A program made the translations under genes and the position numbers. A stretch of 64,000 nt of DNA from Xenophilus sp. L33 (lineage in GTDB: Bacteria; Pseudomonadota; Gammaproteobacteria; Burkholderiales; Burkholderiaceae_C): the NCBI RefSeq assembly GCF_009765735.1, contig NZ_LMUW01000036.1:1-64000 (forward strand), read 5' to 3'. Shown piece by piece: positions 19,802-23,828 of the stretch (position 1 is the stretch's first letter; each line of letters starts with the position of its first letter). The notes beneath the pieces were generated by a model. It was not told the origin of the DNA, did not search any database, and saw nothing but the letters and a program-made list of their open reading frames with translations.

Positions 19802-19917
19802 GCGCGCGGGCCTGCGCCGACACGATCGGATTGAACCGATCGGCTTGATCCGGGAATGAACGGGTTCCACACCGCACGGCGTAGAGTCCACCGACGCTCC
19901 CCGAACCCCAGCCCGCC

Positions 19918-20550
19918 ATGCCGAGCCAACCCAGCGACGCCGGTCGGCCCACCGACCCCGGCTTGCCCCTGGCCGATCGCGCCGACCGCGCCGATCACGC
20001 CGACCGGGCCGAGGCCGGCCTGCTCGCGCGGGCCGCCGCCGCCGAGCTGCCCGCCTTCGAGCAGCTCTACCGGCTCTACCACCCGCGGCTCGCCCGCTTC
20101 CTGGACCGCATGACGCGGCGCCCCGAGCTGATCGGCGAGGTGATCAACGACACGATGATGGTCGTCTGGAAGCGTGCCGCCAGCTTCGACGGCAGCTCCA
20201 AGGTCTCGACCTGGATCTTCGCGATCGCCTACCGCAAGGCGCTCAAGGCCCTGAGCCGGCTCGACGAGCCGGTCGAGGACCCCGACGAGGACGATCGCAC
20301 CGCGCCGTCGGAGAGCGAACCCGAGCAGCATGCGGCGCGCGCGCAGGTGCACGCGCGGCTCGCCGAGGCGATGGACCGGCTGTCGCTCGAACAGCGCGCG
20401 GTGATGCAGCTCTGCTACTTCCACGGCATCGGCTGCCGCGAGGTCGGCGAGATCGTCGGCTGCCCGGTCGACACCGTGAAGACGCGCCTCTTCCACGCGC
20501 GCCGCCGGCTCAGGCAGCTGCTGCCCGGCCGGCTGGAGGACTGGCTGTGA
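19918..20550 (+). CDS. ECF-family RNA polymerase sigma factor
   Basis: A 210-residue sigma-70 family factor. Region 2 runs over residues 45-110 (LYRLYHPRLARF, then NDTMMVVWKRA and STWIFAIAYRKA), an acidic linker follows, and region 4 covers 145-200 (LEQRAVMQLCYFHG, DTVKTRLFHARRRL). The N-terminal 35 residues are a low-complexity Ala/Asp/Arg repeat. It is translationally coupled to its anti-sigma gene (GTGA overlap at 20547-20550) and heads a five-gene cluster that also encodes a subtilase and a porin. Confidence 0.93.
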   Translation: MPSQPSDAGRPTDPGLPLADRADRADHADRAEAGLLARAAAAELPAFEQLYRLYHPRLARFLDRMTRRPELIGEVINDTMMVVWKRAASFDGSSKVSTWIFAIAYRKALKALSRLDEPVEDPDEDDRTAPSESEPEQHAARAQVHARLAEAMDRLSLEQRAVMQLCYFHGIGCREVGEIVGCPVDTVKTRLFHARRRLRQLLPGRLEDWL

Positions 20551-21227
20551 CCGGCCGCGTGCTGCCGCTCGGTGTCGACCCGCATCGGCAGGTGCAGGCC
20601 CTCCTGCCGTGGTACCTCGGCACCGGCCTGGACGCCGAGGAGCGCGCCGAGGTCGAGGCGCATCTGGCCGGCTGCGCCGACTGCCGCGCCGAGCTGGCCT
20701 GGGAGCGCGAGCTGCAGGCGGCTTGCGCGCTGCTGCCGGCCGGCACGCCGGGCGACGTCGACCGTGACTTCGCGCAATGGCGGGCGCGTCTCGGAAGTGC
20801 CCCAACAGCGCCGGCAGCAGCGCGCCGCGACCTCGGCGCCCGGCTCGCCCAACGCTGGCGCGCGAGCCCGCCCTGGACGCGCTGGGCGCTCGCCGGCCAG
20901 TGCGTGCTGGTGGCGTCACTGGGCACGGCGCTGGGCGCCTCGCTCTGGATGCAGCCGGCCACCGAGGCCCGCTTTCGCGCACTCGGAGAACCCTCGGCGG
21001 CCGCCGAGCGCGGCAATCTGATCGTGCGCTTTCGCGCCGATGCGACCGAGGAGCAGATGCGGCATGCCTTGCGCGACAGCCAGGCCCGGCTGGTCTACGG
21101 ACCGACCAGCACCGACGCCTACCTGCTCGCGGTGCCGGCCGGCTCCGAGGCGGCCGCGGTGCGACGGTTGCGACAGCAAGCATCGGTGCTGCTGGCGGAA
21201 TCGCTGGTCGACCGGGCGGCGCCATGA
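20547..21227 (+). CDS. Zinc-finger anti-sigma factor with a propeptide-like C-terminal domain
   Basis: A 226-residue single-span protein. Residues 39-46 hold the ZAS motif HxxxCxxC (His39, Cys43, Cys46) that binds the ECF sigma factor. A membrane segment spans about 112-135, leaving residues 140-226 in the periplasm. That outer domain (NLIVRFRADATEEQM, then ARLVYGP and DAYLLAVPAG, ending with VLLAESL) has the alpha/beta pattern of subtilase I9-type propeptides. The start is GTG, overlapping the sigma stop; its own stop overlaps the protease start (ATGA at 21224-21227). A role in sensing or inhibiting the adjacent protease is inferred. Confidence 0.85.
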   Translation: MTGRVLPLGVDPHRQVQALLPWYLGTGLDAEERAEVEAHLAGCADCRAELAWERELQAACALLPAGTPGDVDRDFAQWRARLGSAPTAPAAARRDLGARLAQRWRASPPWTRWALAGQCVLVASLGTALGASLWMQPATEARFRALGEPSAAAERGNLIVRFRADATEEQMRHALRDSQARLVYGPTSTDAYLLAVPAGSEAAAVRRLRQQASVLLAESLVDRAAP

Positions 21228-22492
21228 AGCGCTGGCTGCGCGCCTGCTTTCTGGCGTTCGTGGTCGCGTTCGTCGCCGGCGCGCCGCTGGCCGCTGCCGC
21301 CGCCGAGGGCGATCCCGGCAGCGCGCCGGCCGTCGACGACCGGCAGGTGCTTCTCCTGCTGCGCCTGCCGCCGGAGCACTTCCGGCCCGAGAACGCCTAT
21401 TCCGGCGGCTACGGCGACGGCGCGGCGCACGGCGCGCGGCGGCGGCTGGCGGCCGCCTTGGCGCGCGAGCATGGCCTGACGCTGGTCACCGACTGGGCAA
21501 TGCCGCTGCTGGGCGTCGACTGCTTCGTGCTGGACGTTCCGGCCGACCGGCAGCCGACCGAGGTCGCAGAGGCCTTGTCGGGCGATGCGCGGGTCGCGTG
21601 GGCGCAGCCGATGCACCTCTACCGCACGCAAGGCCACGACGACCCGCTCTTTTCTTTGCAGCCGGCGACCGAGGCCTGGCAGCTGTCGCGACTGCACGCG
21701 GTGGCCACCGGCCGCGGCGTGCGGGTCGCGGTGGTCGACAGCGCCGTCGATGCGCATCATCCGGATCTCGAAGGCCAGGTGGCGGTGCAGCAGGACTTCC
21801 TCGACGACCGTCGCGACGGCCCGGAAATTCACGGCACCGCGGTCGCCGGCCTCGTCGCGGCGCGCGCCGACAACGGCATCGGCATCGCCGGCATCGCGCC
21901 GGACGCGCGCCTGCTGGCCCTGCGCGCCTGCCGGCAGCAGAGCGCCGACGCCACGCTGTGCACCAGCCTCAGCCTGGCGATGGCGCTGCATTTCGCGATC
22001 ACGCACGACGCCGACGTCATCAACCTGAGCCTGAGCGGGCCGCCCGACCGGTTGCTCGACCGGCTGCTGGACGTGGCGCTGGCGCGCCGCATCGACGTCA
22101 TCGGCGCGGTCGACCGGCGCGCGGCCGATGGCGGCTTTCCGGCGTCGCACCCTGGCGTGGTGGCGGTCGCCGACGACACGCGGCCGCCAGTTCCGCGCGA
22201 CGCCCTGGCCGCACCGGGCCACGACCTGCCGACCACGCTGCCGGGCGGCCGCTGGGGCCTGGTGTCCGGCGCGTCCTTCGCCGCGGCGCAGGTGGCCGGC
22301 CTCCTCGCGCTGGTGCGCGAACGGCGGCCGGCGGGCACTGGCGCCACGACCCGAAGCGACATCGCGACCTTCCCCGACGGAACGATCGACGCCTGTGCCA
22401 CACTGACGCGCGCCGCAGGCACCGAGGCCTGCCCGGCTCGCACCGACGACACAGCGATGCACGCCTTCACCTTCCCTGCCGCCCGCCCGTGA
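21224..22492 (+). CDS. S8 family (subtilisin-like) serine protease
   Basis: A 422-residue exported protease. A signal peptide (about 28 residues, Ala-rich) is followed by a propeptide-like region (40-135), then the catalytic domain with Asp172 (VVDSAVD), His203 (EIHGTAVAG) and Ser351 (SGASFAAAQ). The oxyanion-hole asparagine of the usual AAGN motif is replaced by Asp297 (IGAVDRR), which may lower activity. It lies between the anti-sigma gene (overlap of 4 nt) and a porin-like gene (1 nt gap), so it belongs to the sigma-controlled operon. Confidence 0.9.
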   Translation: MKRWLRACFLAFVVAFVAGAPLAAAAAEGDPGSAPAVDDRQVLLLLRLPPEHFRPENAYSGGYGDGAAHGARRRLAAALAREHGLTLVTDWAMPLLGVDCFVLDVPADRQPTEVAEALSGDARVAWAQPMHLYRTQGHDDPLFSLQPATEAWQLSRLHAVATGRGVRVAVVDSAVDAHHPDLEGQVAVQQDFLDDRRDGPEIHGTAVAGLVAARADNGIGIAGIAPDARLLALRACRQQSADATLCTSLSLAMALHFAITHDADVINLSLSGPPDRLLDRLLDVALARRIDVIGAVDRRAADGGFPASHPGVVAVADDTRPPVPRDALAAPGHDLPTTLPGGRWGLVSGASFAAAQVAGLLALVRERRPAGTGATTRSDIATFPDGTIDACATLTRAAGTEACPARTDDTAMHAFTFPAARP

Positions 22493-22493
22493 C

Positions 22494-23225
22494 ATGCCGA
22501 CGGCCGCTTCGCGTGCCGCGCTTGCCGTGTCGCTCGGCGTCGCGCTTCTTCTGCCGCATGGCTTCGCCCGCGCCCAGGTCGCCGATGGTGTCGGCGACGG
22601 CATCGGCGCCAGCGTCACGCTGCTCTCGAACTACCTCTACCGCGGCGCCTCGCTGAGCGACGAGCGGCCGACGCTCAGCCTCGACCTGTCACTCGACGGA
22701 CCGAGCGGCGGGTTCGCCGGCGCCTCCTTCACCGGCGTGACGCTGGGCCCGGACGACCGGCGCCAGCTTCAGGCGCTCGGCTATGCCGGGTATGCGGGAC
22801 GCCTATCGGAGCGCCTCGGCTGGGAAGCCGGCGCGCTCGCCAGCTTCTTCAGCGTCGACTCGCGCTACGACTACGCCGAGCTCTTCACCGGCCTGAACGG
22901 CGAGGAATGGAACCTGCGCCTGCACTACGCGCCCGACTATTTCGGCAGTGGCACGGCCACCGCGTACGGCGAATGGAACCTCGGCATTCCGCTGACGCCG
23001 CTGCTGCGCGCGACGGCCCATGCGGGCGGCCTCCGGCTGCTCGGCGCCGGCCCGCCGGGAAGCAGCCGCACGAACCTCGACGGCAGCGTGGGCCTGGCCT
23101 TCGCGCGCGATGCCTGGGAGCTCAAGCTCGACTGGGTGGTCGGCGGCCGGAACCCGCTCTACCCCACCGCCTACGGACACTCGACGACGCACGCGCTGGT
23201 GCTGGCCGCATCGCTGGCCTTCTGA
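22494..23225 (+). CDS. TorF family putative porin
   Basis: A 243-residue outer-membrane beta-barrel candidate with a signal peptide ending near ARAQVAD. The first strand motif SVTLLSNYLYRGASLSD is the hallmark of the Gcw_chp/TorF family. Alternating hydrophobic strands continue to a C-terminal phenylalanine (LAASLAF), as needed for barrel assembly. Start at 22494 is one base after the protease stop. Confidence 0.85.
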   Translation: MPTAASRAALAVSLGVALLLPHGFARAQVADGVGDGIGASVTLLSNYLYRGASLSDERPTLSLDLSLDGPSGGFAGASFTGVTLGPDDRRQLQALGYAGYAGRLSERLGWEAGALASFFSVDSRYDYAELFTGLNGEEWNLRLHYAPDYFGSGTATAYGEWNLGIPLTPLLRATAHAGGLRLLGAGPPGSSRTNLDGSVGLAFARDAWELKLDWVVGGRNPLYPTAYGHSTTHALVLAASLAF

Positions 23226-23315
23226 CGCGCGGCGGATTGAACCGTTCTCGCGCGCCGCGGGATTCACCGGACGGCAGGCCCTTGTCGCCCGCCCCCAACC
23301 CCCAAGGAGCCATTC

Positions 23316-23828
23316 ATGAAGCGCGCCCTCCTCGTGATCGTTTCCGGCATCTCCCTGGTCTTCAGCCTCGGCGCGGCGGCGTCCGGCGGCGGAGGAGGCG
23401 GAGGCGGAGGTGGTGGTGGCGGCGGAACGACCCAGGCCGCCAACCCGGACCCCGACTTCCGCGCTGGCATGGACGCGGTCGACAAGAAAGACTGGCAGCA
23501 GGTGCAGGTGCACATGGGCGCCTACACCGAACGCCATCCCGAAGACGCCGACGGCTGGAACGAGCTCGCCCATGCCTATCGCAAGATGGGCAACATCGAC
23601 CTCGCGCTGGCCGACTACGACAAGGCGCTGAAGATCAACCCGAACCACCGCGGCGCGCACGAATACCTCGGCGAGGCCTACCTGCAGATGGGCGACCTGC
23701 CGCGCGCCGAGGAACAGCTGAAGGTGCTGAACTCGCTGTGCTTCTTCCCGTGCGAGGAATACAGCGACCTGAAGACCGCGGTCGGCAAGTACCGCAGCCA
23801 GCACGTGCAGACGGGGTCGGCGCTTTGA
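23316..23828 (+). CDS. Exported TPR protein with a polyglycine run
   Basis: A 170-residue protein: signal peptide (about 22 residues), then 14 consecutive glycines, then two to three tetratricopeptide repeats (residues 70-145; ADGWNELAHAYRKMGN and HRGAHEYLGEAYLQMGD are typical). The C-terminal part has a Cys pair (LCFFPCEEY). AAGGAG lies 6 nt before the ATG. TPRs bind other proteins, here probably in the periplasm. The next gene starts inside its stop codon. Confidence 0.85.
   Translation: MKRALLVIVSGISLVFSLGAAASGGGGGGGGGGGGGGTTQAANPDPDFRAGMDAVDKKDWQQVQVHMGAYTERHPEDADGWNELAHAYRKMGNIDLALADYDKALKINPNHRGAHEYLGEAYLQMGDLPRAEEQLKVLNSLCFFPCEEYSDLKTAVGKYRSQHVQTGSAL
23385..23426 (+). repeat. GGN codon run encoding 14 glycines
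   Basis: Fourteen GGN codons in a row (GGC, GGA and GGT mixed) follow the signal-peptide region of the TPR protein. The mixed third bases argue against recent expansion by slippage of one unit. Confidence 0.85.

Follow-up and report, generated by a model that had tools for sequence, protein, structure and literature searches.

Protease control of anti-sigma factors is already known. The RseA-DegS-RseP-RpoE system of Escherichia coli is a precedent for a protease that acts on an anti-sigma factor (PMC8103513, available part), and the CRISPR protease Csx29 with Csx30 is a second one, in which cleavage is proposed to lift sigma inhibition (PMC10028731, available part). Here we analysed an operon of Xenophilus sp. 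L33 on a stretch of 64,000 nucleotides (contig NZ_LMUW01000036.1, positions 1 to 64,000; the window), in which genes for an extracytoplasmic function (ECF) sigma factor, a membrane anti-sigma factor and an S8 subtilase follow one another. It shares with the E. coli system a membrane anti-sigma factor of an ECF sigma factor and, as the proposed logic, release by a periplasmic protease. Unlike DegS, the window protease is co-encoded, read as exported and not of the HtrA type with a PDZ domain, and unlike RseA the anti-sigma factor carries an outer domain that resembles a protease prodomain. With the CASP system (Cas7-11, the caspase-like Csx29, Csx30 and CASP-sigma) it has in common a dedicated protease gene beside an ECF-type sigma factor and its inhibitor (PMC10028731, same part); unlike CASP, it spans the membrane and its relatives mostly encode S8 proteases. 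A relation to Csx30 itself was considered and judged to be chance, as the only match of the Csx30 model in the family of 74, at E 0.0064, is about as good as chance would yield in that many tries, and the matching member is not among ten rows checked; Csx30 was absent from the four families that matched the window anti-sigma factor at E <= 1. What appears new is the predicted prodomain-type outer domain together with a co-encoded, exchangeable protease read as exported. The literature searched (titles and the starts of abstracts, with the main ECF reclassification paper outside it) described neither a propeptide-like anti-sigma factor nor this operon, and the available parts of PMC7406223 and PMC8103513 hold nothing on either. 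ECF gene-context tables may well already list S8 neighbours.

The operon is a tight run of forward-strand genes for the sigma factor, the anti-sigma factor, the subtilase and a TorF/Gcw_chp protein, followed after a short gap by a tetratricopeptide repeat (TPR) gene. By its domain content the product of 19918-20550 (+) is an ECF sigma factor, since regions 2 and 4 are both present (Sigma70_r2 and Sigma70_r4_2; PF04542, PF08281) and the ECF-type model TIGR02937 scores 97.2 bits at a cut-off of 42.9. The anti-sigma gene (20547-21227, +; 226 residues, GTG start) overlaps the end of the sigma gene with its 5' end, and the ATG of the subtilase gene (21224-22492, +; 422 residues; PF00082, E 6.9e-25) overlaps the anti-sigma stop. 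An earlier sequence-only reading of this stretch had placed the latter two genes at 20547-22492, and this holds. In the anti-sigma factor, a zf-HC2 domain is followed by one membrane helix and a prodomain-like domain at the C-terminus. With its zf-HC2 domain at residues 14-47 (20586-20687, +; E 1.8e-11, 44.3 bits, cut-off 22.2) and the HxxxCxxC motif read at residues 39-46, it is by sequence a class I zinc anti-sigma factor. The anti-sigma family profile matched the solved anti-sigma factors ChrR, 3hug, RsiW and DdvA, and the zf-HC2 domain and profile matches are what it shares with the class I zinc members ChrR, RsiW and 3hug; we know of no propeptide-like C-terminal part in these three. A long helix is predicted by the structure model at residues 109-134 (20871-20948, +), and from its sequence we read it as a single membrane helix. 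The outer propeptide-like domain occupies residues 152-219 (21000-21203, +), and a short C-terminal tail follows its last strand (residues 220-226; 21204-21224, +).

To assess how often this anti-sigma factor is accompanied by a protease gene, we used searches with the single protein or with alignments, which gave matches in 36 of 150 relatives and in 59 of 399 genomes of the order, 115 of 369 of the class and 118 of 398 of the phylum. Many of these matches cover the common N-terminal anti-sigma part alone. From the listed places we chose 112 loci whose match spans both domains (the window, L031-L061, L099, L100 and L158-L235); L062-L068, with a match mainly from the membrane helix on, as well as L236 and L237 were excluded before counting. 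Three further loci at contig ends (L175, L229, L232) were excluded, which left 109 with room downstream. The next gene on the same strand encodes an S8 subtilase in 80 of the 109 and a caspase-like C14 protease in 19, together 99. Related genomes are not independent, which thinning by identity corrects in part: a protease came next at 70 of 80 loci at under 80% identity and at 54 of 61 at under 50%. The ten loci without a downstream S8 or C14 gene on the same strand count as misses. Of these, L190 and L200 encode a C93 protease directly after the anti-sigma factor, L205 has its S8 and sigma genes on the other strand and L181 has a C14 gene on the other strand about 2 kb away. For comparison we used 40 control anti-sigma factors that these searches had matched in the N-terminal part only, picked by running down the listings and passing over G354, G877, G884 and G1169. 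An S8 gene lay downstream in two of the 40 (L240 and L262), and in both a similar C-terminal domain seems to be present, in L240 by profile and in L262 by eye only, where Pfam found no prodomain; with both set aside the count is 0 of 38. The difference is large (99/109 versus 2/40, Fisher p 1.0e-23; 54/61 versus 2/40, p 3.1e-18). The S8 and C14 models used for counting were built from the same loci, so that control proteases could be missed; S8 genes were still detected in the controls L246 and L257, on the other strand. The anti-sigma factor and its adjacent protease are a recurrent module in which the protease link is conserved, and this adjacency of genes for exported proteases suggests that the protease helps to set the sigma switch.

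Further loci have the same arrangement. In 30 of the 80 S8 loci the protease start overlaps the anti-sigma end as in the window (starts chosen by the author). A scan of named genomes gave one match, in an Oxalobacteraceae metagenome-assembled genome (L031). A similar order is also annotated on a Sphingobium plasmid (sigma factor, hypothetical protein, serine protease) and on a Sphingomonas plasmid (sigma factor, zf-HC2 protein, S8 peptidase, TorF). The sigma model found no sigma gene in L053, L166 and L171.

The nature of the outer domain was assessed by profiles and predicted structure. PF22148, the Fervidolysin N-terminal prodomain, matches residues 152-218 of the window anti-sigma factor marginally (E 3.6e-4; 21.3 bits at a cut-off of 21). 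Among the 74 aligned family members, the window included, 25 match at E <= 0.1, the best at 6.1e-9, and 49 have no match at that level. Scored against the whole genome of the window, where the match is marginal, PF22148 gave none at E <= 0.001. A phmmer search of solved structures with the anti-sigma factor found an anti-sigma protein and no propeptide, and the family profile likewise found anti-sigma domains and no propeptide, other matches being at E 0.075 and above. AlphaFold models were made from 74 alignment rows for the anti-sigma factor and 47 for the protease, and core confidence was high in both, with most blocks of ten residues above 90. Strands are predicted at residues 155-162, 181-184, 191-197 and 214-219 of the anti-sigma factor and helices at 168-177 and 201-210. 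Its best structural match is the subtilisin prosegment 1spb_P (Z 8.4, rmsd 2.5 over 66 residues), followed by 1scj and 3whi and, lower in the ranking, by Tk-propeptides and POIA1. The alignment pairs residues 155-226, and thus also the tail, with 7-75 of 1spb_P, and that with POIA1 (1v5i_B) covers 154-226 (first and last residues in each case). The outer domain therefore has the predicted fold, the element order and the span to the C-terminus in common with the subtilisin BPN' prosegment (1spb) and POIA1 (1v5i); unlike these, it sits on an anti-sigma factor, across the membrane from the part that binds sigma. By profile and predicted fold, the outer domain is of the Fervidolysin-type or I9-like prodomain kind. 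It is encoded by a separate gene and is not N-terminal in the protease polypeptide, so that it is no propeptide in cis.

The sequence-only reading had claimed that this domain resembles the propeptide of the neighbouring protease, which we place at residues 41-134 of the subtilase (21344-21625, +) on the basis of hhalign and of model elements from strand 41-47 to strand 132-134. At the level of families the likeness is real, as judged by PF22148, hhalign and the predicted fold. In hhalign, the two family profiles pair anti-sigma residues 162-221 with protease residues 67-131 at P 1.8e-5 and a probability of 78-80%, compared with P 0.35, 0.039 and 0.13 for three control region pairs; the score of 29.0 compares with a best of 14.0 among 200 column shuffles and 10.8 for the reversed profile. 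Predicted elements of the protease propeptide are strands at 41-47, 86-93, 98-104 and 126-129 and helices at 67-82 and 111-119, with a loop of low confidence at 51-70. The two domains thus share the predicted order beta-alpha-beta-beta-alpha-beta, and the different folds that would have spoken against the claim were not predicted. The motif comparison on which it had drawn (DAYLLAVPAG with DCFVLDVPAD) fared less well: its register is close to that of hhalign, but it is not significant by itself, because the two window proteins alone fail to align by BLASTP, which gave nothing relevant (the best match, at E 0.85, covers 7 residues in another place). In sequence, the neighbour's propeptide is itself divergent, with PF22148 matching two of ten neighbouring proteases at E <= 1 (best E 0.027) and leaving the window protease unmatched. 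The general prodomain family is therefore closer to the outer domain than to the propeptide of the protease next to it, which argues against mimicry in the narrow sense. Searched with the outer-domain profile, 21 of 84 S8 frames matched at a domain E < 0.1, for the most part weakly and for the most part over the propeptide's second half; none of the 21 C14 frames did. At another, unlinked locus (L237, 1810-3819) the profile matches the propeptide region of an S8 protease at 2.7e-6.

Could the likeness be chance, or that of a generic ferredoxin-like fold unrelated to propeptides? The failed BLASTP comparison, the middling Z of many unrelated ferredoxin-like folds and the two thirds of the family that stay below the E 0.1 standard with PF22148 would fit such an explanation. 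However, the Pfam match is above its cut-off in the window and strong in the best family member, the hhalign score exceeds that of every shuffle, and the unlinked protease of L237 is matched in its propeptide region. We rejected chance likeness of fold on the PF22148 family matches and on hhalign against shuffles, and regard this explanation as very improbable.

Next to a conserved anti-sigma layout, the partner proteases differ. The catalytic Asp, His and Ser are kept in 47 of 47 aligned S8 partners. Proteins of the window type are compact, and another S8 type carries long proline-rich leaders. Pfam identified the product of the following gene as C14 in L045, L213 and L236, the last of which is outside the count, and as a C93 protease (PF06035, E about 7e-59) in L190 and L200. 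At these two loci (L190, 2743-3393; L200, 4790-5440) the C93 (BTLCP) cysteine protease follows the anti-sigma gene and an S8 gene lies upstream on the same strand. From their leaders we read the partner proteases as exported: many S8 partners carry Sec-like leaders, a crude lipobox pattern, which also catches false ones, occurs in 22 of 80, and in the window's genus the leaders of C14 partners, for example MATLLTRRTLLQGALG in L052, look like twin-arginine signals. The protease family changes from S8 to C14 and, in two loci, C93, and the anti-sigma layout stays. Because the same outer domain accompanies C14 proteases at 19 loci and C93 proteases at two, plain propeptide mimicry is argued against. 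The HxxxCxxC motif occurs in 45 of 80 S8-linked anti-sigma relatives and in 0 of 19 C14-linked ones. When 69 sigma factors were placed in a tree, the six C14 rows shared one starred set with eight S8-linked rows and a row that lacks a protease; this tree requires at least three changes of the C14 label, and a single origin of the C14 linkage may be compatible with its starred branches.

Some loci showed further arrangements. In same-genus loci L043-L045, L047-L052, L054-L057 and L060, an anti-sigma factor without HxxxCxxC has the same outer domain and is followed by a C14 protease with a twin-arginine-like leader. In L236 (1267-4442), and in partial matches in L062-L068, a longer protein (387 residues in L236) matches from the membrane helix through the outer domain only; downstream of the L236 gene come genes for a C14 protein that matches DUF4384 weakly and, after it, for a small protein that by eye looks Hcp-like.

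How could such a module work? We tentatively favour, at a little short of even probability, a role of the co-encoded exported protease as a dedicated input that acts on the outer domain, most likely as a site-1 protease. The ECF sigma factor, the membrane anti-sigma factor and the exported protease would form one module, in which the protease presumably engages the anti-sigma factor at its outer domain, on the periplasmic side. After maturation or activation outside, the protease would dock on this domain or cut it, and intramembrane and cytosolic proteases would degrade what remains of the anti-sigma factor, as happens to RseA. The sigma factor would then be freed and the operon made in larger amounts. 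S8 partners may dock via the propeptide-like surface, and for C14 and C93 partners the same domain would be substrate only. Loss of the anti-sigma factor seems likelier than its protection because the partner can be caspase-like or of the C93 family, and for such enzymes a role of the domain as substrate is more plausible than one as inhibitor of the propeptide type; we know of no I9-type propeptide in C14 or C93 proteases. Of the link between protease and sigma release proposed by the sequence-only reading, the propeptide-type signal with its predicted fold and the association with a protease gene (99/109 versus 2/40) are borne out, and the narrow form, in which the domain mimics the propeptide of its neighbour, is not. 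To our knowledge, many ECF sigma/anti-sigma pairs have no known input. In this operon a candidate input is encoded together with a receptor, the structural class of which predicts a possible mode of engagement, so that release of the sigma factor can be tested directly in a single operon. The model, if true, would extend the theme of DegS/RseA and Csx29/Csx30 to a recurrent, exported version with exchangeable proteases, with a propeptide-type domain used as a signalling receptor.

Several observations weigh against this model. The fold alone decides nothing, because unrelated ferredoxin-like folds reach Z 7.9 and 7.7 versus 8.4 for 1spb_P; the beta-alpha-beta-beta-alpha-beta fold is common, and Foldseek ranked pro-subtilisin top for the anti-sigma model, yet at an E of only 0.017. 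There is no evident reason for caspases to recognise a propeptide fold. No protease was found nearby in six of the 109 loci (L053, L059, L166, L222, L223 and L224), and the outer domain can therefore persist without a neighbouring protease. In distance trees of 56 operons, the partial correlation between the outer and catalytic domains was 0.11 given sigma and 0.18 given all others (0.03 given sigma for the anti-sigma domain comparison), and the outer domain and the propeptide had no link (-0.07). A specific link between the outer and catalytic domains is at most weak. Finally, the window-type S8 may cut poorly because the usual oxyanion Asn is missing. The catalytic triad of the window subtilase is intact in sequence (Asp172, 21737-21739; His203, 21830-21832; Ser351, 22274-22276; all +), but Arg298 (22115-22117, +) stands at the position of subtilisin Asn155, which we take to be the oxyanion residue, according to a phmmer alignment to subtilisin and the aligned residue rows. 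The oxyanion GN motif is present in 17 of 47 partner S8 rows, and the window is among the 30 without it. The protease model matches pro-subtilisin E at 6.5e-23, and from its Sec-type leader we read the protease as exported.

The missing Asn would suit a binding partner, and together with the prosegment-like span up to the C-terminus it keeps an inhibitor model alive. As a feedback thermostat, the outer domain would bind the mature subtilase as a propeptide or POIA1 does, the bound protease would stabilise the anti-sigma factor, and sigma would be released only when the protease is missing, badly exported or titrated by substrate. Both structural counterparts, 1spb_P and POIA1 (1v5i_B), were solved in complexes. 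Selective inhibition of the cognate subtilase is documented for one propeptide (PMC10580911, available part). The tail after alignment column 214 is mostly of similar length, with a median of 11 residues, an interquartile range of 9-13 and a range of 0-22 in 57 S8-linked rows; in the anti-sigma model it has low confidence (64). However, feedback leaves C14 and C93 partners unexplained, co-evolution gives no signal of note, and the C-terminal residue is variable (P in 40 and E in 25 of 112, then R, Q, G and others). We therefore consider such feedback clearly unlikely. In another variant, the outer domain would be a second chaperone that folds the exported protease in trans and holds it at the membrane, with sigma control secondary. 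Propeptides of mesophilic subtilases act as chaperones (PMC10580911, same part), but the window protease has a propeptide of its own in which every predicted element is present, and caspase partners would have no need of the outer domain, which makes this variant highly improbable. Returning to the protease as input, a wider form of that model is possible, with more doubt than confidence: a portable envelope module in Pseudomonadota, with a prodomain-like receptor outside and, as input, a co-encoded exported protease that can be exchanged among unrelated catalytic types (S8, C14, C93). Window-type S8 proteases without the oxyanion Asn may then be slow or binding-only sensors, and their capture by the receptor rather than bulk proteolysis would set the sigma factor.

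Directly 3' of the protease, 22494-23225 (+) encodes a putative outer membrane protein of the TorF/Gcw_chp family (PF09694, E 1.4e-8), and a TorF gene is also found 3' of the protease in a number of relatives. This would fit an explanation in which the protease is a mere sigma target with a function at another place in the envelope, perhaps alongside the TorF-like protein, and the outer domain is a small sensor in the periplasm for a different signal, its likeness to propeptides being old ancestry with no present interaction. The lipobox-like leaders of some S8 partners could place them away from the inner membrane, and the outer domain is kept at the six loci where no protease was found. Against this stand the protease adjacency, much stronger than among the control anti-sigma factors, and its survival when the protease family is switched, which would be expected where proteolysis as such is important. 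We regard the explanation as rather unlikely. Three of the six loci (L222, L223 and L224) form one family that has kept the sigma factor and the anti-sigma factor with its outer domain, with no protease found next to them; L222 and L223 have, downstream, a gene identified by eye as CarA-like.

We also looked for promoters of the sigma factor. A putative ECF promoter (TTGAACC ... CGGGA) precedes the sigma gene at 19829-19855 (+), with similar sites before sigma in relatives, and a second putative copy, found by pattern match, precedes the TPR gene at 23235-23262 (+). The pattern TGAACC-N(11-16)-CGGGA occurs at these two places in the window, with 0.25 expected and two of 100 shuffles reaching two. 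In its strict form it has exactly two sites in the 6.9 Mb genome (19829 and 23235), and the reversed control has none. Similar sites lie within 250 bases 5' of sigma in seven of eight same-genus loci (L032-L038). With one fixed pattern, a site was present in 11 of the 78 S8 operons whose upstream sequence was long enough and in none of 19 C14 operons; the expectation from simple shuffles is about 0.05 each. Eight of ten genomes had a site, which stood before sigma in G000, G023, G078, G058 and G019; the sites of G065 and G113 and a second one in G023 are on other contigs or far off, and that of G075 is about 2 kb away. Because the pattern occurs away from the operon in relatives, we infer a small regulon for the genome of the window only. 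The TPR protein (23316-23828, +; library domain match) is a putative second target of the sigma factor, and its gene lies near the operon in eight same-genus loci (L032-L039).

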